DNA of 64,000 nt from a bacterium (GTDB taxonomy: Bacteria > UBP6 > UBA1177), in NCBI GenBank assembly GCA_017405875.1, contig JAFQZM010000030.1, positions 1 to 64,000 of the forward strand, in the 5' to 3' direction. Below the pieces are notes generated by a model, which was given only the letters and a program-made list of their open reading frames with translations, had not been told where the DNA came from and ran no database searches. The position numbers were made by a program, and so were the translations under genes. Each line of letters starts with the position of its first letter. Within the stretch, counting starts at the first letter, position 1. Shown piece by piece: positions 17,315 to 29,772 of this stretch.

Positions 17315-18334
17315 TCACAAATTCAGTTTCAGTTCTCTGTTTGAAAGCAGTGATTCAAGAGTGGTTCTGTAATCGGCGATTCCTTTGATTTCTAAGATTG
17401 TTGTGATTTTTCGTCCTGCGTCTTTGCTGGATGCGCCGCAGTGATAGAGTTTTTCGTTTTCTCTTCCGAAATCAATAGCGATATACCTGTCGTGGATTCG
17501 ACCAAGAGAAGCGATGAAATTTATTTTTACATCGGGATATTCCTTCAAAAAATCGTTGTATTCGGTGAGTTTCAATGGATTTTTTCCTTTATTGTCACTA
17601 ATTATAGTGATTTGAATCCCGCTTTTCGCACTTGCGAGATGGCGCAAAGTCTTTAATCCCAGATAATCATCAATTACAATGATGGAATGTTCTGCAGTTC
17701 CATAAATTTTCTGATAAGCGAAATCGGCTTTGAACGGTTCGCCGTCAAGAATCAGTATTTCCTCGTTTCTGATTCCCGTGTCGAAAAGTTTCATAAAATC
17801 TGACAATTCATCCTTTTTAACCATATTTTTTTCAATATCCTGAATTTTATCTGACAGTTTTTCCTGCTTGTTTTGAAGCAGTTTCAAATCTTCATAAGGC
17901 AGAAGCGGAGTGTTTTGCAAAATATAATGCGCTACTTCGACAAAAACTTCCATTATCAAAATGCTTGCTTCAATCGCTCTGTCCGTGTGCAGCACGGATG
18001 TCAGCATCGAAAGTCCGTGTTCGGTGTAGACATAAGGCAAATATTTTGAATACTTACCCTGTTCCAATTCTAAGATGCCAAATTGGCATCTTAGAATTTC
18101 GTGATACTCCTCTCTTGAAATTTGAAAGCAGAATTTGGGTGGAAATCGTTTGATATTTCGCTTCATTGCCCTGTTGAGAGCAGCTGTTTCAACTCCGAAA
18201 TAAGCAGCAATGTCGCTGTCAAGCATGACGCGAAGACCACGGACCTCATAAATCTGTGATTTTACTTTTTCCTTGTCGATCTGATCTAAGAGAATGATTT
18301 CTTTTTTGTCAATGATTTCAATTTTATCAGTCAT
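17315..18334 (-). CDS. ORF6N-domain protein with HKD-like C-terminal domain
   Basis: 339 aa. Residues about 15-110 form an ORF6N DNA-binding domain (GLRVMLDSDIAAYFGVET, KRFPPKFCFQ, YLPYVYTEHGLSML), typical of phage and mobile-element genes. A coiled segment follows (LKLLQNKQEKLSDKIQDIEK). The C-terminal part contains RIHDRYIAIDFG and LYHCGASSKDAG, which resembles one half of a phospholipase-D/HKD-type site, as seen in many ORF6N proteins; activity is unproven. The gene is bracketed by exact 21-bp direct repeats and contains a 33-base palindrome. Probably a mobile or defence-associated gene. Confidence 0.82.
   Translation of the reverse strand: MTDKIEIIDKKEIILLDQIDKEKVKSQIYEVRGLRVMLDSDIAAYFGVETAALNRAMKRNIKRFPPKFCFQISREEYHEILRCQFGILELEQGKYSKYLPYVYTEHGLSMLTSVLHTDRAIEASILIMEVFVEVAHYILQNTPLLPYEDLKLLQNKQEKLSDKIQDIEKNMVKKDELSDFMKLFDTGIRNEEILILDGEPFKADFAYQKIYGTAEHSIIVIDDYLGLKTLRHLASAKSGIQITIISDNKGKNPLKLTEYNDFLKEYPDVKINFIASLGRIHDRYIAIDFGRENEKLYHCGASSKDAGRKITTILEIKGIADYRTTLESLLSNRELKLNL
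18066..18098. repeat. 33-base palindrome inside the ORF6N gene
   Basis: AATTCTAAGATGCC, then AAATT, then the exact reverse complement GGCATCTTAGAATT; all pairs match apart from the single central base. It codes for part of LRCQFGILELE, where ORF6N proteins vary in sequence. Confidence 0.85.
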
Positions 18335-18618
18335 GTTTACACACTCATATTATACAATAAACACAAGATTATTATAGCATAAATTCTAAAAATATCAAAC
18401 TTAATAATAAATATTTCTCATCAATATATCAATAAAACGCTTGGAAAATTTAAAAAAATTAAGTTGTGTGATAGGATCGGCACAATTGGGCAAACTCTGT
18501 CTGCACAAATTCAAAAAAATCTCGCTGATTCTTTGCTTTAAATCGCCGCTTTAACTTGCATTTTTCAGCGAAATAAGGCAAAAATATCCGGCGAATGGAT
18601 ATAGGTGGGAACCCGACT
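18335..18618. other. Intergenic start of the restriction island
   Basis: An AT-rich gap between divergent genes. It holds the right-hand 21-bp repeat (18548-18568) and, on the plus strand, AGGTGG 10 bases before the chosen methyltransferase start. No small gene is evident. Confidence 0.4.
18548..18568 (+). repeat. 21-bp direct repeat, right copy
   Basis: Identical to 17289-17309. The following bases (TTTCAGCGAAAT) also partly match the left copy. The motif reads CGCTTTAACTTGC; its reverse complement resembles the GCAAGTTAAACCG of the repeats around the DUF4143 gene. Confidence 0.8.
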
Positions 18619-19602
18619 ATGCGAGAAATAAAAGTAGACATAAAAGAAAACGAGATTTTGAACTCTGATCCGAAACTTCTGGAGATTCTTCTCAAAGATA
18701 ATTCTTCCGGGAAAAACATTATCTGGGCAACAAACGATTACGCTTCAAACGGCGAAGGATTCAGCGCGGATGACCAGATTTTGCCTGATTTGATAACTGG
18801 TAAAAACGGAGAACTTATCAAACCGAGAACGGAAAAGACAAAGGAGGAAAAACTTGCCAGAATAAGGGACAAAGCGGAAGTTTTTACGCCTTCATGGATC
18901 TGCAACCAGATGAACAATCTTGTGGACGAAGCTTGGTTCGGGCGCAAGAACCCATTTAATGTCGAAGGTGACAAGAGTTGGAAAGCGAAAAGGGATAAAA
19001 TCAGGTTTCCGAAAGACAAAACCTGGCTGGATTATGTCAGGACTACTCGGCTTGAAATCACTTGTGGCGAAGCTCCGTTCCTTGTCAGCAGATACGATAC
19101 TGTTTCAGGAGAGATAATCCCGATCAAAGAGCGCATCGGACTTCTTGATAGAAAGCTCCGTGTTGTTTCGGAAAATGCAACCACTCAAAAACAATGGTAT
19201 TTTTGGGCAAAAGAAGCTGTAAAAAGTATTTATGGTTTCGAATGGCAGGGTGACAATGTTCTGCTTGCCAGAGAGAATCTGCTTTTCACATTTTGCGATT
19301 ATCACGAGAAAAAATTCAGGAGATATCCGAGCAAAGAACAATTCCGCAGAATAGCGGACATCATTTCGTGGAATATCTGGCAGATGGACGGATTGAAGTT
19401 CGTAATCCCGAACAGTTGTCACGAAGAACGCTCAATACAATCAGGCTTCTTTTTTGGTGCAGAAGAAGAAAAACTTCATCCTTGTGAAGGCTGTGAAAAG
19501 AATGATCCGAACAAACACAACGGTACTTACTGCTACATTATGGATTGGAAAGAAGGCAAAAAAGTTAAATTTGCGGATTCGTTTAACGGGAGGCAAAAAT
19601 GA
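18619..19602 (+). CDS. Methyltransferase N-terminal half, R-M system subunit M
   Basis: 327 aa from the ATG at 18619; an ATG at 18595 is possible. It carries the early motifs of an Eco57I-type N6-adenine methyltransferase: AEVFTPSWICNQM (motif X type), LEITCGEAPFLVSRYD (SAM-binding motif I, with CGEAP instead of the usual CGSG), and SIYGFEWQGDNVLLARENLL (motif II/III). The catalytic NPPY is absent. A Cys-rich tail (HPCEGCEKNDPNKHNGTYC) may bind zinc. Its stop overlaps the next start (ATGA), and that protein carries NPPY. I infer the two chains together make one methyltransferase. This family is often labelled 'restriction endonuclease subunit M'. Confidence 0.85.
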   Translation: MREIKVDIKENEILNSDPKLLEILLKDNSSGKNIIWATNDYASNGEGFSADDQILPDLITGKNGELIKPRTEKTKEEKLARIRDKAEVFTPSWICNQMNNLVDEAWFGRKNPFNVEGDKSWKAKRDKIRFPKDKTWLDYVRTTRLEITCGEAPFLVSRYDTVSGEIIPIKERIGLLDRKLRVVSENATTQKQWYFWAKEAVKSIYGFEWQGDNVLLARENLLFTFCDYHEKKFRRYPSKEQFRRIADIISWNIWQMDGLKFVIPNSCHEERSIQSGFFFGAEEEKLHPCEGCEKNDPNKHNGTYCYIMDWKEGKKVKFADSFNGRQK

Positions 19603-22600
19603 CATTTAATGCGGCTTTTAAGTATAAACTGATTTACATCTTTGCTATTCCTGATGAAGATCACAAAGGTCTGCTGAAAATAGGAGAGACAACTGTTTCG
19701 ACAGACAAAAATTTAGAAGAGCTTTCTCCAAATTCAAAAGAGTTAAACCAAGCTGCCAGGGAGCGTATAAGACAATATACCGGAACTGCGGCAATCGATT
19801 TCAGGGTGTTGCATACTGAATTGGCTGTTCGTTCTGAGTTAAACAGACTCATCGCTTTTTCAGATAAAGATGTCCATGCTGTTTTGAAGCGTTCGGGGAT
19901 TAAACCTCACAATTTCCCTGAAAATAAAGGAAGAGAATGGTTCAAAGTTGATCTGGAAACAGCCCAAAATGCTATCAAAGCTGTAAAAGAAGGAAGACAA
20001 TCCCTTCAAGGAGGCGAAATATTCGATGGAATGACCCCGATTGTTTTTCGTCCCGAACAGAGAAAAGCAATTGATGAGACAAAATTCCGCTTTGAAGTTA
20101 GTGACCACATGCTTTGGAACGCAAAAATGCGTTTCGGCAAAACATTGACAGCTCTGCAGCTTGTGAAAGAATGCGGGTTCCAGAAAACGATCATCATCAC
20201 TCACAGGCCTGTTGTAAACGAGAACTGGTTTGACGATTTTCATAAGATTTTTTATGATACTGATTATAAGTTCGGATCTAAAACCCAAGGCGAAACTATA
20301 GAAAAACTCATTGAAAAAGAGGATACAAAATTTGTCTATTTCGCTTCGATTCAGGATTTAAGAGGCTCTGAAGCAGCAGGCGGGAAGTATGATAAGAACA
20401 TTTACCAGTTTTTGATAGATTGGGATCTTGTAATTACTGATGAAGCACACGAAGGAACTCAGACGAAACTCGGACAAAGCGTTACAAATCTTTTGATTGA
20501 CCACAAAAAGAAGCCGAAACTGCTTGATTTGTCGGGGACGCCTTTCAATATTCTGAGCAAATACAGCAAAGACGAAGTTTATACTTGGGATTATGTAATG
20601 GAGCAGAGAGCTAAAACCGATTGGGAAAAATACCATTTCGGAGACAATAACCCTTATGCCGGACTGCCTAAATTACAGATTTACACATATAATCTCGACA
20701 AATTTCTTCCTGGCTATATTGATGCGGAAGATTCTGCTTTCAATTTCCATGAATTTTTCAGAGTTTGGACAGGGAACCCTGCAAAAGATTTCAAACAAAT
20801 GCCGTCAGATGCAAAAGTCGGTGATTTTATTCACGAAAAAGATGTCAGCAGATTCCTTGATCTCCTTTGCAAAAGTGCTGAGGAGAGCAATTATCCGTAT
20901 TCTACCGAAGAATTCCGCAATTATTTCAGGCACTCTCTATGGATAGTTCCAGGAGTTAAGGAAGCTAAGGCATTATCGGCGTTGCTTAGCAAACATCCGG
21001 TTTTTGGGAATTTCGAAAGAGCCAATGTTGCAGGAGACGGAGACGAAGAGGAGGAATACTCTGATGCAATGAAAAAAGTTCGCAACGCTTTCGGAGAAGA
21101 TCCGTCGGAAACATATTCAATCACTATTTCCTGCGGCAGACTGACTACCGGCGTGACTGTTCCTGAATGGACTGCTGTATTTATGCTTGCAGGAACATTC
21201 TCGACATCTGCTTCAAGTTATATGCAGACGATATTCCGCGTTCAGTCTCCGGCGAATATAAACGGAAAAATCAAAGAAAACTGCTATGTTTTTGACTTTG
21301 CTCCCGACAGAACTTTGAAAGTTGTTGCCGAAACCGCCCGCATTGCTTCGCGTCCGGGTGAAAACAACCCGAAAGACGAAGTTGTTTTAGGCGAGTTCCT
21401 GAATTTCTGTCCGATCATTTCGATGGAAGGCTCGAATATGAAGCCTTATGATGTGCCGAAATTGATGCAGCAGCTAAAGAAAGTGTATACGGAGAGAGTT
21501 GTCAAAAACGGTTTTGATGATCCGCATATTTACAATGAAAATTTGTTGCGTCTGGATGAAGTCGAAATCAAGGATTTTGAAGAACTTAAAAAAATCGTCG
21601 GAGTCTCAAAGCAAAGCAAGAAAACAGAGGAGATAGACATTAACGATCAGGGCTTTACCGATGAAGAATATGAAATAATAAAAAAGGCAGAAAATAAGCC
21701 GAAAAAGGAACGTTCCAAAGAGGAACTGGCTCTTCTTGAAGAAAAGAAGAAAAAACTGGAGACAAAACAAAAGGCAATTTCTATTCTTCGAGGAATTTCC
21801 ATCCGCATTCCGCTGTTGGTTTACGGTGCGGATGTTCCTTCAGATGAAGATATTACGGTAGAAAATTTTGCCTCTAAGATAGATCCGCAGTCATGGCAGG
21901 AATTTATGCCGAAAGATGTAACGAAAGAACTGTTCAAAAAGTTCACCAAATATTATGACAAAGATATTTTTGTGGCTGCCGGAAAACGGATCCGTCAACT
22001 TGCAAAAGCGGCAGACGGATTGCCGCCGACAGAGCGTGTTCAGAAAATCGCAGCACTTTTTGCGACATTCAAAAATCCAGACAAAGAAACAGTGCTCACC
22101 CCGTGGCGTGTAGTAAATATGCACATGAGCGAGTGTTTGGGCGGTTATGACTTTTTTGATGAATCGCATGAAGATGTGCTGGGCGAACCGCGTTTTGTCA
22201 ATCGCGGCGAAGTCACGGCAGAAACCTTGGCAAATACAAAAGCCCGGATTTTGGAAATCAATTCCAAAACTGGCCTGTATCCGCTTTATGTCACATACAG
22301 CATTTACCGCAAACGCTGTGAAGAATGCAAAGATGCACTTACACTTGAAAAACAAAAAGAGCTTTGGAATCAGACCATAAAAGACAATGTTTTTGTAATC
22401 TGCAAAACACCTATGGCAAAAAGCATAACAAAACGAACATTGGCAGGTTTTACCAATGCAAAAATCAATGCTCACTATTTCGAAGATTTGATCAATCAGT
22501 TAAAAAGCAAACCCGATCAATTCAGAGAGAAAGTAATCAAAGGAAGTTATTGGAATAGAGGAGATAAAGAAATGAAATTCAATGCAATAGTCGGAAACCC

Positions 22601-23636
22601 GCCGTATCAGGAAGAATCTGTTAAACAAATATCGTCAAAAAACGGACAAACGCCAAGAACAAATGTTTTTCATTATTTTCAAATAGCAGCAGACCAGCTT
22701 TCTTCTAAATTTGTTTCTTTAATTTATCCTGCTGGAAGATGGATTCATAGAAGTGGCAAAGGCCGGGGGTTAGCACAATTCGGGCTAGAACAAATAAATG
22801 ACAAGTCACTAGAAAAGATAGACTTTTATTTACATGCACAGGATATTTTTCAAGATGTGGACATTTTTGATGGAATTTCTATGGTTCTAAAAAATAAGGG
22901 TAAAACTTCGGATGGTTTTACATACATATATCACGAAAATGGATTTAGTTTTTCTACTCATTTGGATAATCCTGGTGACAGTTTAATGCCGCTTAATCCA
23001 AGGGATGGTCTTATTGTTGGTAAAATATCGCAGTTCGTAGAAAAACATAAGCTGCTCTATTTACACGACAGAATATTGCCTAGAAATTTATTTGGCATAG
23101 AAAGCAATTTTGTAGAAAGTAATCCGTCTGAAGTTAGGGAAGGATCTAAAAATTCTATAGTTGGTGAATCCGAGATAAAATTGTTTACCAATGACCGTGC
23201 TGGAAAAGCAGGACGGGCAAAATGGTATATTGCTAATCGTAATGTTATTAAAACAAACCAAGAATATATCAACGAATGGCAAGTAGTTGTTTCGAGCGCA
23301 AATGCTGGCGGGCAAAAGAGAGATAATCAAATTGAAATTATAGATAATCATTCTGCTTTTGGGCGTTCTCGTGTTGCGTTGGCTTCTTTTAAAACGGAAA
23401 TTGAGGCACAAAACTTCTATAGGTATGCAAATACATATTTAATTCGTTTTATGTTTTTAATGACAGACGAAGCTCTAACATCTCTTGGCAAGAAAGTTCC
23501 TGACATTATGGACTATACAAATACGAATAAGTTCCTTGATTTTTCGAAAGATTTGGACCAGCAATTATATGAGTTATTTGACTTGGATTCCGACGAAATA
23601 CGTTTCATCGAAAGCAAGGTGAGTGAGAGGGAGTAA
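19599..23636 (+). CDS. GIY-YIG nuclease-helicase-methyltransferase fusion
   Basis: 1345 aa, GGGAGG before the ATG. Residues 9-120 look like a T5orf172/GIY-YIG nuclease: KLIYIFAI, LLKIGETT, RIRQY, a Glu in AVRSELNRLI and GREWF. Residues about 150-600 are an SF2 helicase: AKMRFGKT (Walker A), VITDEAHEG (DEAH), LLDLSGTPFNI, and TISCGRLTTGVTVPEWTAV with MQTIFRVQSP. A charged helical stretch follows. From about residue 990, FNAIVGNPPYQEES supplies the catalytic motif IV of an Eco57I-like N6-adenine methyltransferase, then a likely target-recognition region. Motifs X and I-III sit in the upstream protein. A restriction-modification enzyme is the natural reading. Confidence 0.88.
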   Translation: MTFNAAFKYKLIYIFAIPDEDHKGLLKIGETTVSTDKNLEELSPNSKELNQAARERIRQYTGTAAIDFRVLHTELAVRSELNRLIAFSDKDVHAVLKRSGIKPHNFPENKGREWFKVDLETAQNAIKAVKEGRQSLQGGEIFDGMTPIVFRPEQRKAIDETKFRFEVSDHMLWNAKMRFGKTLTALQLVKECGFQKTIIITHRPVVNENWFDDFHKIFYDTDYKFGSKTQGETIEKLIEKEDTKFVYFASIQDLRGSEAAGGKYDKNIYQFLIDWDLVITDEAHEGTQTKLGQSVTNLLIDHKKKPKLLDLSGTPFNILSKYSKDEVYTWDYVMEQRAKTDWEKYHFGDNNPYAGLPKLQIYTYNLDKFLPGYIDAEDSAFNFHEFFRVWTGNPAKDFKQMPSDAKVGDFIHEKDVSRFLDLLCKSAEESNYPYSTEEFRNYFRHSLWIVPGVKEAKALSALLSKHPVFGNFERANVAGDGDEEEEYSDAMKKVRNAFGEDPSETYSITISCGRLTTGVTVPEWTAVFMLAGTFSTSASSYMQTIFRVQSPANINGKIKENCYVFDFAPDRTLKVVAETARIASRPGENNPKDEVVLGEFLNFCPIISMEGSNMKPYDVPKLMQQLKKVYTERVVKNGFDDPHIYNENLLRLDEVEIKDFEELKKIVGVSKQSKKTEEIDINDQGFTDEEYEIIKKAENKPKKERSKEELALLEEKKKKLETKQKAISILRGISIRIPLLVYGADVPSDEDITVENFASKIDPQSWQEFMPKDVTKELFKKFTKYYDKDIFVAAGKRIRQLAKAADGLPPTERVQKIAALFATFKNPDKETVLTPWRVVNMHMSECLGGYDFFDESHEDVLGEPRFVNRGEVTAETLANTKARILEINSKTGLYPLYVTYSIYRKRCEECKDALTLEKQKELWNQTIKDNVFVICKTPMAKSITKRTLAGFTNAKINAHYFEDLINQLKSKPDQFREKVIKGSYWNRGDKEMKFNAIVGNPPYQEESVKQISSKNGQTPRTNVFHYFQIAADQLSSKFVSLIYPAGRWIHRSGKGRGLAQFGLEQINDKSLEKIDFYLHAQDIFQDVDIFDGISMVLKNKGKTSDGFTYIYHENGFSFSTHLDNPGDSLMPLNPRDGLIVGKISQFVEKHKLLYLHDRILPRNLFGIESNFVESNPSEVREGSKNSIVGESEIKLFTNDRAGKAGRAKWYIANRNVIKTNQEYINEWQVVVSSANAGGQKRDNQIEIIDNHSAFGRSRVALASFKTEIEAQNFYRYANTYLIRFMFLMTDEALTSLGKKVPDIMDYTNTNKFLDFSKDLDQQLYELFDLDSDEIRFIESKVSERE

Positions 23637-23678
23637 AAGTTTGTGGATTAAGAACAACATTGTAGAGAGGAGAAAGAG

Positions 23679-26216
23679 ATGGTAAAAATTTTTGTGAGTT
23701 ATGCGCATACCGATGAGACATTTTTAACAGATAATTTAATTCCCATTTTAAATGAATTAAAGTCGGAAGGTGTTGCCGACTATTTTTATGACAGATTGAT
23801 AATGCCAGGTGAGGATTTGTTTAAGAAAATTGATGAAAACATGGATGAGTGTGATATATCAATATTATTACTTTCAGAAAGTTATTATCAATCAAATTCT
23901 TGTAAAAAAGAAAAATCGCGACTGCTAAACAGAAGAATTTTAGATGGAATTTATCTTTTACCTATGGTTGTATCTTCTTGTGATTGGGAAAGGGACGACG
24001 TCATAAAAAACAATTTGCTTTTAAATACTGATGCCAAAGAATTAGATCAATTATCTCCAAATGAATTAAAAACAGAGTTTGAAAAGATAAAGGAAAAATT
24101 ATCTTTGATTGCCAGGGATATAGAAACAATAAGTGCACTTGACTTTTCAAAATCATTTACAGATTTGCTTGAAGATACCGATGTTTTGAAAACATCTCAT
24201 CGTTTAAAAGATACTTTATTATTATCTGATGTGTTTATTTATCCTATATTGAAGAAAAATGTGCTTGATAATGAAAAAGAAGAAATAATTTCTTCAGATA
24301 TGTTTTTTGAAGATTCTAAGGATAGTCGATTCATTTTTATATCCGGGGATGATGTGTCAGGTAAGACTTCTTTAATAAAAAAATTCATCTGTGATATTAA
24401 AGAAAAAAATTTTATACCACTACTTTTTTCCTCAACAGATGACCTCGGCGGAGATTTTCTTACAAAAAGATTTAAAAAACAATTTGCTGTTGAAATGCCT
24501 GACAAAGAAATTAAAAGACTGCTTGGATCTAATAAAGAACGCATCATAATATTTGTTGATGACTACCATAAAATTAGCAACAGAAGTAAGTTTGTTAATA
24601 AGATCGATTCATGTTGTAAAATTGTATGCACCGTAGATTTAATATATTCTCTTGATTTGGAGATAGAAGAAATACATGAGAATATTTCAAGATATTCTAT
24701 AAAAGAACTTTCGCCTTCAAAGCGAAATGATTTGATACAGAAATGGTTAAGGCTTGGAGAAGATCCATTCCATTCAGATGATTTTTCTCGCGTAAAGGAA
24801 ATAGATAAAAAAACTGAATTAATAGAATCTATAACATATAAATCATTAAATGGCGGAATTATGCCGGCATACCCCTTTCTAATTTTGTCTATATTAAGCA
24901 ATTTCGAAACTTTAAATCGCCCACTTAATCAACAAGTAACCTCGTACGGCTATTGTTATGAAGCTTTAATAATTATAGCTTTAACAAAAGTTGGGTTAAA
25001 AAGTGATGATCAAATAGCAGGTGCAATAAATTTCTTGTCTAATTTCGCTTACGAACTTTATAAGTTAGGATATCACGAAATGGCCAACATGGATTTCCAA
25101 GTATTTCTCGATAATTATGAAAAGAAATTTTCTATACCTTTTAAAAAAGATATTTTTATAGATAAGCTTTTGACAAGCAGATTAATTATAAATAGTCTTG
25201 GCAACTATGGGTTTGATTATAAATATATTTATTATTTTTTTGTGGCCATATATTTCTCTAATAATTTTGACGAATTAAAAGAAGAGATAGCAAATATTTG
25301 CAAAAACATTCATAGAGATGAAAATGCTTATATAGCGATTTTCTTTTCTCACAATGCAAAATCAGAAGATTTCTATAATATGTTGCTGGAAGAGGCTAAT
25401 TCTCTTTATTCTAATATTGATATTGCAACTTTGGCAAAGGAAGATATGGGATTTTTTAATAATAGTTGTCAATGGTTGAAATTTACATTACCAAATGAAA
25501 GACACAATTATAAAATAGAACGAGCAAACGCTTTAAAACGACCAGAGAAAGAATACTCACATGATGAAGAGATACCTGACGAAACACACGATCAGTATAT
25601 GTTAAACTTGCGTAAATCAATAAAATTGACTGAAGCAATTGGAATTATTGCAAAAAACAGGTATACTGCTATTCAAAAATTACTTGTCAAGAAACTTTTG
25701 ACAGCTGCTATAGATTTAAGTTTAAGAGGATTAAATTCATTTTTTGATTTATTTAGAGAAACTAAAAGTCAAGAAAATATCATCAATTTTATTGCAGAGT
25801 TTATAAAACAGGAGGAAAACAAAAGGGGTCGAGTAATTAAAGATGAAGAATACCAAAGAATTGCCAATAAAATCTTTTGGAGACTGAATTTTTTTCAAAT
25901 ATATGTTGTGCTTACAAAAACTATTCGATCAATTGGTTCGGAGCATTTGATCCCTTTTGTTGATCAAATTACCAAAGAAAAAGAAACTCCATCATATCAA
26001 ATAATTTTAGAAGGAATGAAAATGACATATGAAAAGAATGTGGATACCAATAATCTCTCTAATTATATAAAAAAATCGAATAATTACTCTCTTATAGCAA
26101 AAAATATATTGCGAATGTTTGTTATAGATTATTGTAGAATGAATCCTGTGAGATTTAATGAAATACAAAAACTAAGCAATAGGTTAGAAATAAAAATAGA
26201 TAAGTTAAAAAAGTGA
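23679..26216 (+). CDS. TIR-STAND (NLR-like) defence protein
   Basis: 845 aa, strong ribosome site (GAGGAGA). Residues 1-130 are a TIR domain: KIFVSYAHTDE, YDRLIMPGEDLFKKI, ISILLLSESYYQS, and SCKKEKSRLL with the expected catalytic Glu of NAD-cleaving TIRs. From about residue 220 a P-loop NTPase of STAND/NACHT style follows: FISGDDVSGKTSLIKK (Walker A) and RIIIFVDDYHK (Walker B, near 288). The remaining 500 residues are helical, without a family I recognise, and are likely the sensor. The gene is far more AT-rich than the core genes, a sign of transfer. I infer an abortive-infection sensor that degrades NAD after detecting a phage component. Confidence 0.82.
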   Translation: MVKIFVSYAHTDETFLTDNLIPILNELKSEGVADYFYDRLIMPGEDLFKKIDENMDECDISILLLSESYYQSNSCKKEKSRLLNRRILDGIYLLPMVVSSCDWERDDVIKNNLLLNTDAKELDQLSPNELKTEFEKIKEKLSLIARDIETISALDFSKSFTDLLEDTDVLKTSHRLKDTLLLSDVFIYPILKKNVLDNEKEEIISSDMFFEDSKDSRFIFISGDDVSGKTSLIKKFICDIKEKNFIPLLFSSTDDLGGDFLTKRFKKQFAVEMPDKEIKRLLGSNKERIIIFVDDYHKISNRSKFVNKIDSCCKIVCTVDLIYSLDLEIEEIHENISRYSIKELSPSKRNDLIQKWLRLGEDPFHSDDFSRVKEIDKKTELIESITYKSLNGGIMPAYPFLILSILSNFETLNRPLNQQVTSYGYCYEALIIIALTKVGLKSDDQIAGAINFLSNFAYELYKLGYHEMANMDFQVFLDNYEKKFSIPFKKDIFIDKLLTSRLIINSLGNYGFDYKYIYYFFVAIYFSNNFDELKEEIANICKNIHRDENAYIAIFFSHNAKSEDFYNMLLEEANSLYSNIDIATLAKEDMGFFNNSCQWLKFTLPNERHNYKIERANALKRPEKEYSHDEEIPDETHDQYMLNLRKSIKLTEAIGIIAKNRYTAIQKLLVKKLLTAAIDLSLRGLNSFFDLFRETKSQENIINFIAEFIKQEENKRGRVIKDEEYQRIANKIFWRLNFFQIYVVLTKTIRSIGSEHLIPFVDQITKEKETPSYQIILEGMKMTYEKNVDTNNLSNYIKKSNNYSLIAKNILRMFVIDYCRMNPVRFNEIQKLSNRLEIKIDKLKK

Positions 26217-26249: not shown

Positions 26250-26349
26250 TTTGTCAGACATGTCTAACAAATCTATAATAAATTCAATGATTATGAAAAA
26301 GTTGTGACATGTTGCAACAATTGATGTGTGATTATAGGGGTAGCAAACA
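26250..26349 (+). promoter_or_regulatory. Short palindromes before the AlbA_2 gene
   Basis: AGACATGTCT (within TTGTCAGACATGTCTAACAA) and TGTTGCAACA are perfect 10-base palindromes in the leader of the AlbA_2 gene. They may be operator sites; the AlbA_2 protein itself is a candidate ligand, but this is inference. Confidence 0.3.
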
Positions 26350-27768
26350 ATGACCTTACTCGATGAAATAAAATCCGGCGAGAGCCGAACCCTCGAATTT
26401 AAGCAGGAACTTCCGCAGGATGCACGAAAGTGGGTGAAGACAATTGTCGCTTTTGCTAACGGTGCGGGCGGCAAATTCGTGATCGGGGTGAACAATCAGC
26501 GTGAATTTGTCGGAATTCCGAAAAGTGTTGATCTGTTCGAGCTGAAAGACAACATTTCCGACACTATCGCCCATACTTGCGAACCGCAGATCATGTTTGA
26601 CATAACGGCTGAAAACATAGAAAACGCACAGCTTCTTGTTGTCACAGTTTTTCCTGGAAACACCACGCCGTATTATGTGAAATCGCAGGGAAAGGAAAAC
26701 GGAACCTATATCAGGCTCGGTGCGACGACACGCAATGCCGACTGGACTGCTTTGGATGAACTTGCAAACAGAGGCCGCCATGTTTATTATGACGAACTGC
26801 CGTTTACTTCGCTGAAAGTTGAAGCTGCTGATATCAACTATCTCTGCAAGGATTTTTCAGAACGCGCTGAGAGGAAGATCACAAAGAACGAATTGAAGAA
26901 TTTGAATCTTTTTACAGGAGTAAAGCAGAATGTAGCCACGAACGCTTATGCCATACTTCTTGGAAAACACGATTACACCTCGCGTATCCAGTGTGCAAGA
27001 TTCAGAGGGACTGAGCGCGTCGATTTTCTTGATAAAAAGGAATACGAAGGGCCGCTTTGCGAGCAGATAGACGGCGCATACAAATTTGTTCTAAACTATC
27101 TCAGCATGGCGGTAGAAATAAACGGTATTGTCCGCAAAGAAAGATACGAACTTCCGCCGAAAGCCATCCGCGAGCTGATCATAAATGCTGTGATTCATCG
27201 GAATTACCAGATGAGTTCCAGTGTTCAGGTCGCAGTTTATGACGACAGAGTAGAGATTTCTTCTCCCGGCAGCATATATGGTTCTTTGACACTGGAAGAA
27301 GCCTTGTCAGGCCGCTCTTCTGTCAGAAACAGGACGCTTGCACGCACTTTAGAAAAAATAGATGTTGTTGAAGGCTGGGGAACCGGATTTAAGCGCATTT
27401 TTTCTCAATGTGATGAATACGGCGTCAAAAGACCTGAGTTCTTAGAAATCGGCGATATGCTGCGGGTGAATTTTTATCGTCCCTCTTACACCAAAATCGG
27501 CGATAAATCGGCGATAAATACTGAAGTCGGCGATAAATCGGTGATAAATACTAAAATCGGCGATAAATCGGCGATAAAATTTAAAGATAAGATTCTGGAA
27601 TATCTAAAAGATAACACCGAGGCCAAAACACAGGATATTTCGCTGTATATCGGGCTTAAACTATCGAGAACAAAGGATTATCTTTCCGAACTTGTTGAAG
27701 AGGGAAAAATCGTAGCCAACGGTGCGAACAAGAACAGAACTTATTCACTGGTAAAAGAAAGAGAGTAA
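26350..27768 (+). CDS. AlbA_2 DNA-binding / ATPase-domain protein
   Basis: 472 aa. The N-terminal AlbA_2 (Schlafen-like) domain shows SRTLEFKQELP, FANGAGGKFVIGV, and PYYVKSQGKENGTYIRLG with TTRNAD. The middle holds an HATPase_c_4-type domain (PPKAIRELIINAVIHRNY, DDRVEISSPGSIYG, RNRTLARTLEKI, EGWGTGFKRI). Three 10-residue repeats (KIGDKSAINT type, residues 382-411) link to a winged-helix tail. Proteins of this build are often called RecG-like but lack the helicase; they are thought to be regulators and are frequent in R-M and defence islands. The ribosome site is weak. Its 5' end recurs as two fragments at 29200 and 29707. Confidence 0.85.
   Translation: MTLLDEIKSGESRTLEFKQELPQDARKWVKTIVAFANGAGGKFVIGVNNQREFVGIPKSVDLFELKDNISDTIAHTCEPQIMFDITAENIENAQLLVVTVFPGNTTPYYVKSQGKENGTYIRLGATTRNADWTALDELANRGRHVYYDELPFTSLKVEAADINYLCKDFSERAERKITKNELKNLNLFTGVKQNVATNAYAILLGKHDYTSRIQCARFRGTERVDFLDKKEYEGPLCEQIDGAYKFVLNYLSMAVEINGIVRKERYELPPKAIRELIINAVIHRNYQMSSSVQVAVYDDRVEISSPGSIYGSLTLEEALSGRSSVRNRTLARTLEKIDVVEGWGTGFKRIFSQCDEYGVKRPEFLEIGDMLRVNFYRPSYTKIGDKSAINTEVGDKSVINTKIGDKSAIKFKDKILEYLKDNTEAKTQDISLYIGLKLSRTKDYLSELVEEGKIVANGANKNRTYSLVKERE
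27493..27582 (+). repeat. Three 30-bp in-frame tandem repeats
   Basis: Units 27493-27522, 27523-27552 and 27553-27582 encode KIGDKSAINT, EVGDKSVINT and KIGDKSAIKF. ATCGGCGATAA repeats inside each unit. The copy number may vary between strains. Confidence 0.9.
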
Positions 27769-27810: not shown

Positions 27811-28836
27811 ATGAATAAAGAAATTGTAAAAAACGATGAAATTCAAACAAATGAAAGACTGAATGTTCTTGCCAATACTATTGTTGACGAAGTGAATCTC
27901 ACAAAATCGTGTCTTGCACTTAATATAAGTGCCGTCATGGTCAAGACTTATTGGTCTGTTGGACATCACATTGTCGAGTTCGAGCAGGACGGTGGAAAAA
28001 AGGCTAAATACGGAACTTCAATGCTGACAAATCTTGCTAAAATTCTGACAATGCGTTTGGGAAGAGGTTACAGCCGCCCAAATCTCAATAATATGCGGAA
28101 GTTTTACCTGCTATATCCACTTTGTCAGACTTCTGACAAATTAACATGGAGCCATATCTGCGAGTTAATAACAATAGACGATGATCTTGAACGTAGTTTT
28201 TACGAAAAAGAATGTGTGAAAGAAAACTGGGATGTCCGTTCCCTCCGCCGCCAGATGGATTCCGGTCTGTTTTTGAGACTTGCGGCAAGCAAAGACAAGG
28301 AAGGAATTCTTGAACTGGCAAAAACAGGCATTGAAATTCAAAAACCAATGGATGTCGTAAAAGACACATACATGCTTGAATTTCTTGGACTTCCTGAAAT
28401 GGAGCGTTATTCCGAAAGTGATCTGGAACAGCGGATTATTGATAATCTTCAAACCTTTCTGCTTGAACTCGGTAAAGGGTTCGCGTTCATCGGACGGCAG
28501 TATCCGATTACAATAAACAATGTTCATTATCATGTGGATTTGGTTTTTTATCACCGGATTTTGAAGTGCTTTGTGCTGATTGATTTAAAGAAAAATTCAG
28601 TAAAACACGAAGATATCGGGCAAATGAACATGTATATGGGCTATTTTGCAAAGGAAGAAAACGAACCGAACGACAATCCGCCTATAGGAATTATTCTGAG
28701 TCACAACAAAGATGAACTGCTTGTTGAGTATGCAACTTATGGAATGGACAGCAATCTGTTTGTCTCAAAATATGAACTGTATTTGCCAAACCGCGAGGAA
28801 CTGCGCAAATTGGTTAGCGGAATATTGTCAGAATGA
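27811..28836 (+). CDS. DUF1016 family PDDEXK nuclease-like protein (YhcG-like)
   Basis: 341 aa. The N-terminal DUF1016_N half has MVKTYWSVGHHIVEFEQ, KYGTSMLTNLAKIL and FSRPNLNNMRKFY-like text (YSRPNLNNMRKFYLLYP). The C-terminal half has the nuclease-type core (FAFIGRQYPI, HVDLVFYHRILKCFVLIDLK). The family is often found within type I and related restriction-modification loci, in keeping with its position here; the biochemical role is unproven. GGAGG precedes the ATG. It is followed by a short fragment gene and a truncated second DUF1016 copy. Confidence 0.88.
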   Translation: MNKEIVKNDEIQTNERLNVLANTIVDEVNLTKSCLALNISAVMVKTYWSVGHHIVEFEQDGGKKAKYGTSMLTNLAKILTMRLGRGYSRPNLNNMRKFYLLYPLCQTSDKLTWSHICELITIDDDLERSFYEKECVKENWDVRSLRRQMDSGLFLRLAASKDKEGILELAKTGIEIQKPMDVVKDTYMLEFLGLPEMERYSESDLEQRIIDNLQTFLLELGKGFAFIGRQYPITINNVHYHVDLVFYHRILKCFVLIDLKKNSVKHEDIGQMNMYMGYFAKEENEPNDNPPIGIILSHNKDELLVEYATYGMDSNLFVSKYELYLPNREELRKLVSGILSE

Positions 28837-29182: not shown

Positions 29183-29199
29183 CCACGGAGCCCAACCCA

Positions 29200-29310
29200 A
29201 TGCCCTCACTCAACAAACTCAAATCCGGCGCATTCACCCTTGAATTTAAGCGGGAATTGCCGCAGAATGCGGGGAAGATGGGGGACGGAGATAATTTGGA
29301 GGTAAGATAG
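29200..29310 (+). pseudogene. Truncated AlbA_2 5' end, copy 2
   Basis: 36 codons, MPSLNKLKSGAFTLEFKREL and a few more, clearly the start of an AlbA_2 gene (compare MTLLDEIKSGESRTLEFKQE at 26350) that soon runs into a stop. Its stop abuts the next ATG at 29311. Confidence 0.75.
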
Positions 29311-29664: not shown

Positions 29665-29706
29665 AAAAGATCCTTTGAATACGAATGTAAACACGGAGTC
29701 CAAACA

Positions 29707-29772
29707 ATGACCTTACTCGATGAAATCAAATCCGGCGACAAAGGCGGTCTTTGGGAAATTGTAAAATTGTAG
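29707..29772 (+). pseudogene. Truncated AlbA_2 5' end, copy 3
   Basis: 21 codons starting MTLLDEIKSGDKGG, identical in its first ten residues to the intact gene at 26350 and also sharing the leader (CAAACAATGACC). It ends at a stop after 21 residues. Confidence 0.75.

Follow-up and report, generated by a model that had tools for sequence, protein, structure and literature searches.

The protein encoded at positions 23679–26216 of a 64,000-nucleotide stretch of contig JAFQZM010000030.1 (assembly GCA_017405875.1, from a bacterium of the GTDB lineage UBP6; UBA1177), here referred to as the window, is, as judged from its sequence, a TIR variant of the DS-8/PDC-S60 family in which the phosphatase of DS-8 has been replaced by a TIR domain. 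The favoured reading, to which we give a probability of roughly two in three, is that this TIR-STAND protein is a single-protein receptor of that family which would provide a NAD-consuming second layer of defence behind restriction–modification (R-M) genes. Its wider interest lies in showing that the DS-8 sensor core can do without a phosphatase: TIR and SEFIR-like effectors also occur on it, in many phyla and including archaeal metagenome bins.

Gene position, integrity and base composition

The TIR-STAND gene lies on the forward strand, encodes 845 amino acids and is preceded by a Shine–Dalgarno-like GAGAGGAG (23665–23672, forward strand) placed six bases 5' of the ATG. It begins exactly 42 bases past the stop of a 1345-aa R-M helicase-methyltransferase gene, as the first-pass annotation of this DNA had reported, and the forward strand of that gap contains no terminator-like site. 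Downstream, a promoter-like site (TTGTCA-17-TATAAT, 11/12; 26251–26279, forward strand) precedes the next gene, which encodes an AlbA-type protein, and the TIR-STAND transcription unit may end there, although promoter-like sites overall are not enriched (31 found versus 28.2 expected from shuffles). That the gene is real and intact follows from a 57%-identical full-length copy in Treponema together with dozens more relatives at 22–35%.

The G+C content of the gene is 28–30%, compared with about 41% in its surroundings, which bears out the earlier remark that it is much AT-richer than its neighbours. Within the adjoining 1345-aa R-M gene, G+C is 40.6% over the first three quarters and 35% over the last quarter. 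Since third codon positions, too, are poor in G+C (0.22 versus 0.39–0.46 for the neighbours), the low G+C of the TIR-STAND gene is not solely an amino-acid effect. High A+T was considered as a specific sign of recent foreign origin and dropped, as all 75 genes with the DS-8 core for which there was enough flank are AT-richer than their flanks, by a median of 12.6 points, and the window gene, at 13.2 points, sits near that median. High A+T is therefore a trait of the family and says little on the age of the window copy. The Avs4-like gene that occupies the corresponding position in a sister species (see below) is equally AT-rich (29.5% G+C).

Domain architecture and predicted fold

The AlphaFold2 model of the protein, built from 36 relatives (mean pLDDT 85.9, pTM 0.81), comprises a TIR domain, a helical linker, a NACHT domain, a helical and winged-helix region and an all-helical C-terminus. 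The TIR domain (residues 1–146; 23679–24116, forward strand) is matched by Pfam TIR_2 at residues 4–107 (E 6e-12), and in structural comparisons with VIA-align it resembles the TIR domains of plant RPP1 (7xoz; Z 15.8, rmsd 2.5, 136 aligned) and of SPARTA (8i87; Z 15.2, rmsd 2.8, 135 aligned). Within the sequence context S-x-S-C-x-x-E, the catalytic-type glutamate, Glu78 (codon 23910–23912), is a glutamate in 35 of 36 aligned relatives, so that both structural hallmarks of a TIR NADase, the fold and a conserved catalytic-type Glu, are present, as had been proposed for this protein from its letters.

The STAND/NACHT nucleotide-binding domain (residues about 182–345; 24222–24713, forward strand) carries a Walker A motif, GDDVSGKT (residues 223–230; 24345–24368), with Gly223 in 36/36 and Lys229 in 35/36 sequences, and a Walker B motif, IIIFVDD (residues 289–295; 24543–24563), with Asp294 in 36/36; the P-loop and STAND-type Walker B of the first-pass annotation are thus confirmed. 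It is followed by the helical and winged-helix region (residues 346–528; 24714–25262), where Pfam nSTAND_NTPase4 (PF24406) matches residues 467–522 at 28.0 bits against a cut-off of 27 and where Pro396, Pro399, Tyr514, Tyr516, Tyr519 and Phe521 are invariant. Structural matches of the model include NOD2 (5irm_C; VIA-align Z 14.9, rmsd 11.7, 393 aligned) and, by Foldseek, NLRC4 (4kxf, E 1.5e-9) and EfAvs5 (9jap, E 8.6e-7). Walker A, Walker B and a NACHT fold with winged helix, the features that define a STAND/NACHT protein, are all found. A second protein with nSTAND_NTPase4 occurs in the same genome (G000:C34:50212-50685; a 710-aa frame).

Residues 529–845 (25263–26213, forward strand), the presumed sensor, were also modelled separately (pLDDT 88.5, pTM 0.88). 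This model has no match in the PDB at E ≤0.001 and none in BFVD by Foldseek, and a sequence search for a relative of solved structure returned P-loop or short chance matches only. The best VIA-align rows are the karyopherin Kap121 (3w3x; Z 7.7, rmsd 5.2, 214 aligned) and then PP2A-A (6ef4; Z 7.3, rmsd 5.1, 178 aligned); both were rejected as structural relatives, their Z values being inside the chance range for helical arrays. Going by the model, the region is called an alpha-solenoid-like array and nothing closer, and the lack of a solved-structure match proves nothing on the novelty of its fold. Several of its charged or polar residues, namely His558, Arg615, Glu652, Arg661 and Arg683, are invariant in 36/36 sequences, suggestive of a conserved contact, either internal or with a ligand.

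Membership of the DS-8/PDC-S60 family

DS-8 is a metallophosphatase–NACHT protein that was validated as an Escherichia coli system in the DefensePredictor study; it guards E. coli against phage as a single cloned protein, and mutating its phosphatase or its NACHT residues abolishes protection (PMC13092281). The window protein is matched by the NCBIfam model NF053861 (DS8_antiphage) from residue 144 to 838, corresponding to model positions 297–994, which takes in the model's C-terminal end (395 bits, E 5.9e-118), and by the PADLOC PDC-S60 model PDLC05050 over residues 152–843 (172 bits, E 4.5e-51). The earlier view that about 500 helical residues belong to no nameable family, with a sensor region that is new, consequently does not hold; by sequence the region is the core of DS-8/PDC-S60, matched over its whole length. 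The structure search that had been proposed for it, run here with residues 529–845, yielded no solved relative for a region whose sequence family is known.

The likeness to DS-8 lies in a STAND/NACHT ATPase and helical C-terminus that are homologous over about 690 residues and in the single-gene design, whereas the difference lies at the effector end, where no metallophosphatase is found at the N-terminus of the window protein and TIR_2 stands instead. Identity to a DS-8 equivalog is 22%, and the 395 bits fall under the 790-bit cut-off that NCBI sets for DS-8 equivalogs in NF053861. Two metallophosphatase members, from loci L006 (1101 bits) and L080 (977 bits), pass this cut-off, while the TIR members tested fail; these two equivalogs fall in the same core alignment as the window protein and differ from it in the effector end. 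Likewise, the first 187 positions of PDLC05050 are unaligned to the window TIR, and PDLC05051, which describes a phosphatase-type N-terminus, matches only phosphatase members among those tested. With the core homologous and TIR members below the cut-off, the window protein is placed as a variant of the family and not as a DS-8 equivalog. Literature searches on PDC-S60 and, by those words, on TIR-STAND with NAD found no paper.

A profile search with the core yielded 71 loci in GTDB genomes and a further 12 in viral contigs (IMG/VR), and the phage collection contained no phage-encoded copy of the core. The closest relative, from a sheep-gut Treponema, is 57% identical over its full length and 56% over the core, and has an hsdS gene 8 bases upstream. 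N-termini of the relatives are either TIR (about 150–200 aa) or metallophosphatase (about 305–350 aa), with a SEFIR-like version in Streptococcaceae; on the one core there are 47 TIR, 24 metallophosphatase and 8 short members. In the core tree the effector label changes 8 times, versus 28 in shuffles, and TIR members cluster together, apart from deeper phosphatase members. The TIR version would offer a simple read-out for finding the trigger of the DS-8 family, NAD loss being easily measured.

Several relatives depart from the usual layout. At L089, L098, L099 and L069 the TIR and the STAND core are on two consecutive ORFs, which could be two-gene versions or frameshifts. In Halomonas and Vreelandella (L056, L058, L060), the TIR-STAND gene is preceded, at a distance of 0–23 bases, by a second, free-standing TIR ORF of 146–156 aa. 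In a cyanobacterial member that lacks TIR, a small 168-aa coiled-coil-looking protein is encoded 47 bases upstream (L077:7426-7929), perhaps an adaptor that replaces the effector.

Linkage to restriction–modification genes

Upstream of the TIR-STAND gene in the window is a pair of R-M genes. The first (18595–19602, forward strand; 335 aa) encodes the first half of a split methyltransferase (PADLOC MTase_II, E 3e-128), with a motif I-like ITCGEAPFL, and overlaps by 4 bases with the second (19599–23636, forward strand; 1345 aa; Pfam T5orf172, ResIII and Eco57I), whose product combines a GIY-YIG-type (T5orf172) domain, a ResIII/SF2 helicase, an Eco57I-type methyltransferase with NPPY and a C-terminal specificity region. 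Upstream of the pair, at 17315–18334 on the reverse strand, lies an ORF6N-domain gene (PADLOC PDC-S05), a homologue of which adjoins a DS-8-type gene in Nitrospira (L061), where a YhcG gene is present as well.

The first-pass annotation had joined the TIR-STAND gene with this split pair in a layered defence. The 1345-aa protein, however, is matched in 86 plasmid records, in 48 of them over most of its length, and the pair is common without the TIR-STAND gene, even standing beside a different STAND gene in the sister species. Among all family loci, a homologue of the window R-M gene occurs only at that of a Paenisporosarcina plasmid (L006), where it lies upstream, at a distance of 1 kb, of a true DS-8, the phosphatase version. 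A conserved unit of TIR-STAND gene and split pair was therefore dropped, as the two occur together only in the window and, loosely, on this plasmid.

R-M genes of other kinds are frequent. Based on R-M detection from eight query proteins, R-M genes lie within 8 kb at 21 of the 67 family loci with enough flank, versus none of 40 arbitrary 16-kb stretches (Fisher p 2e-5), a control that consists of arbitrary genome stretches and not of other defence genes, in a test that counts related loci as independent. At 12 of the 67 loci an R-M gene is directly adjacent on the same strand, and R-M genes are within reach for both effector classes (TIR 14/47, phosphatase 9/26). Their types number at least four, namely type I, type IIG, Dpn-like and split helicase-methyltransferase. 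In two unrelated phyla the gene order is hsdM–hsdS–[STAND]–hsdR, with a phosphatase version between hsdS and hsdR in Ca. Mcinerneyibacterium (L049; gaps of 5 and 8 bases) and a TIR version in that position in Gilvimarinus (L064; gaps of 17 and 48 bases). Within the window's own genus, a bin from yak reticulum (G004, on the same contig as locus L040) has the complete set hsdM–hsdS–hsdR and then a TIR-STAND gene. In about two thirds of family members no R-M gene was detected within 8 kb, which indicates that R-M is not required. The R-M link is thus real for the family and not for the window's particular pair, so that a check of gene order in other genomes, as first proposed, went against the split pair, its one other association being the loose one on the plasmid, and in favour of R-M genes in general.

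A variable slot in related genomes

On the downstream side, the TIR-STAND gene is bordered by an SLFN/AlbA_2 plus RecG-C-like gene (26350–27768, forward strand; 97% identical in genomes G010 and G003) and by the latter's conserved neighbour in both genomes, a YhcG PD-(D/E)XK nuclease gene (PADLOC PDC-S02; 27811–28836, forward strand). The sister species (G010) carries the window's R-M genes, at 88% DNA identity up to window position 22616 and with no similarity from there through the specificity region; the second R-M protein is 73% identical to its sister-species copy, the divergence being mostly past residue about 1004. Beginning 34 bases after these R-M genes, in the slot of the TIR-STAND gene, is a gene for a 1482-aa Avs4-like STAND protein (L124:6537-10985), and the same AlbA and YhcG genes then follow at 97% DNA identity. 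The first 245 residues of the 1482-aa protein match Avs4 (PADLOC 207 bits, NCBIfam 197 bits). The remainder matches no model, and the protein may combine a new sensor with the effector end of Avs4. That the two slot occupants are homologous was rejected, as hhalign aligns the P-loop only (probability 1.6). In G003 a type IIG R-M gene alone precedes the AlbA gene, and in G008 a type IIG R-M gene does so together with a gene for a 626-aa ATPase whose matches are PtuA/OLD-like and Toprim-like.

The contents of the slot in these three genomes indicate that the genus swaps R-M genes and a second, infection-sensing gene upstream of a conserved AlbA–YhcG pair. Together with the relatives, the sister species suggests that sensors of this kind serve as a swappable second line of defence for R-M systems. 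With the same R-M genes beside an exchanged STAND gene, and with the insertions between hsdS and hsdR, a coupling between immunity and suicide becomes directly testable with one locus.

Two further observations concern the edges of the slot. Between the sister species, the specificity region (window 22617–23636 versus L124:5519-6502) has been replaced along with the downstream STAND gene, and despite this swap the last R-M residues (FIESKVxExE) are alike in both. An element of about 100 bases (ATGCCCYCACTCAACAAACTCAAATCCGGCGC...) that is similar to the AlbA gene's 5' end is found at window positions 29199–29301 and 29706–29738, at L124:10997-11101 and, on the reverse strand, at L181:10253-10348. 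Of 15 genomes of the genus, 10 have it near AlbA genes, with 18 matches in all; in G010 and G008 it stands directly before the intact AlbA gene. It may mark recombination edges of the slot.

Proposed mechanism and alternatives

TIR domains of this class cleave NAD, and STAND receptors oligomerise upon ligand binding. On that background, the resting TIR-STAND protein would be monomeric, bound to ADP and folded in the manner of NOD2 or NLRC4, until an infection cue binds the helical C-terminus and ATP-driven oligomerisation brings the TIR domains together; these would then consume NAD or produce a NAD-derived signal, and the cell would stop, by suicide or dormancy. Of these outcomes, NAD loss and suicide are inferred from TIR homology. 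The R-M enzymes would cut incoming DNA first, the STAND protein acting when restriction fails, and the slot behind the R-M genes would be a place of exchange for different second-line defence genes. Such a layered defence had been suggested at first for the window's own R-M pair; the idea gains comparative support from the frequency and adjacency of R-M genes across the family and from the slot swaps, and loses the pair itself as a specific partner.

Defence genes cluster in genomes anyway, and the TIR-STAND protein might act alone, with R-M genes adjoining it simply through the clustering and joint travel of defence genes. This we hold to be nearly an even chance, given that the R-M pair is widespread without the TIR-STAND gene and that, for most family members, no R-M gene was detected in the vicinity. 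TgvAB of Vibrio cholerae, which is embedded in a type I R-M locus, protects without HsdR activity (PMC11411939), and DS-8 protects as a lone cloned protein (PMC13092281). Loose clustering is nonetheless surpassed in tightness by the same-strand adjacency at 12 loci and by the copies that, in two unrelated phyla, are inserted between hsdS and hsdR and leave gaps of only 5–48 bases. These hsd-locus insertions resemble the placement of prrC and raise the reverse idea, that an R-M complex keeps the STAND protein inactive until phage anti-restriction proteins release it, much as EcoprrI keeps PrrC silent until the T4 peptide Stp activates it (PMC2610378); the general idea that R-M and suicide genes are coupled was published in 2012 (PMC3506569). 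We consider such a guard arrangement improbable, for R-M partners of at least four types are hard to fit to one binding interface, R-M genes are lacking in the vicinity of many members, and placement relative to the hsd genes varies. The variety of partners argues for independence or for the sensing of something general, e.g. a phage product. Slightly more doubtful still is the broader proposal in which the DS-8 core serves R-M systems as an interchangeable guard, held off by the neighbouring R-M enzyme or watching its products, and firing its TIR or phosphatase when a phage anti-restriction protein disables R-M; if true, bacteria would have a guard mechanism of the NLR type in which the R-M complex is the partner under guard.

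Another possibility concerns the output of the TIR domain, which might make a signal molecule for an unlinked effector elsewhere in the genome, as in Thoeris, and not deplete NAD directly. In PADLOC, the TIR part indeed scores best against ThsB (59.6 bits, and 174.8 bits for the Marinobacter member L048), but no ThsA-like protein was found among the nine neighbours scanned, and the relatives are self-contained single genes; this, too, appears unlikely, to about the degree of a PrrC-like arrangement.

Comparison with other defence and immune receptors

The receptor of the favoured reading shares features with several known systems. Its layout of effector, STAND and helical sensor is that of Avs proteins, among which EfAvs5 is a structural match, and in the sister species its slot is taken by an Avs4-like gene. 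Its sensor lacks the match that would be expected of an Avs protein, and no Avs model of PADLOC or NCBIfam matches the window protein at E ≤0.001; by these models, close resemblance of the C-terminal region to an Avs sensor, which had been raised beforehand as a counter-indication to the first reading, was not found, and the separate C-terminal model has no clear match of solved structure (best Z 7.7). The likeness to PrrC–EcoprrI is that of a second-line gene linked to, and sometimes inserted in, R-M operons, although PrrC is an ABC-type anticodon nuclease with no homology to TIR-STAND. With plant TIR-NLRs such as RPP1 the protein shares the TIR fold, and with the animal NLRs NOD2 and NLRC4 the NACHT fold; unlike in NLRs, its C-terminus is not LRR but an irregular helical array of its own family.
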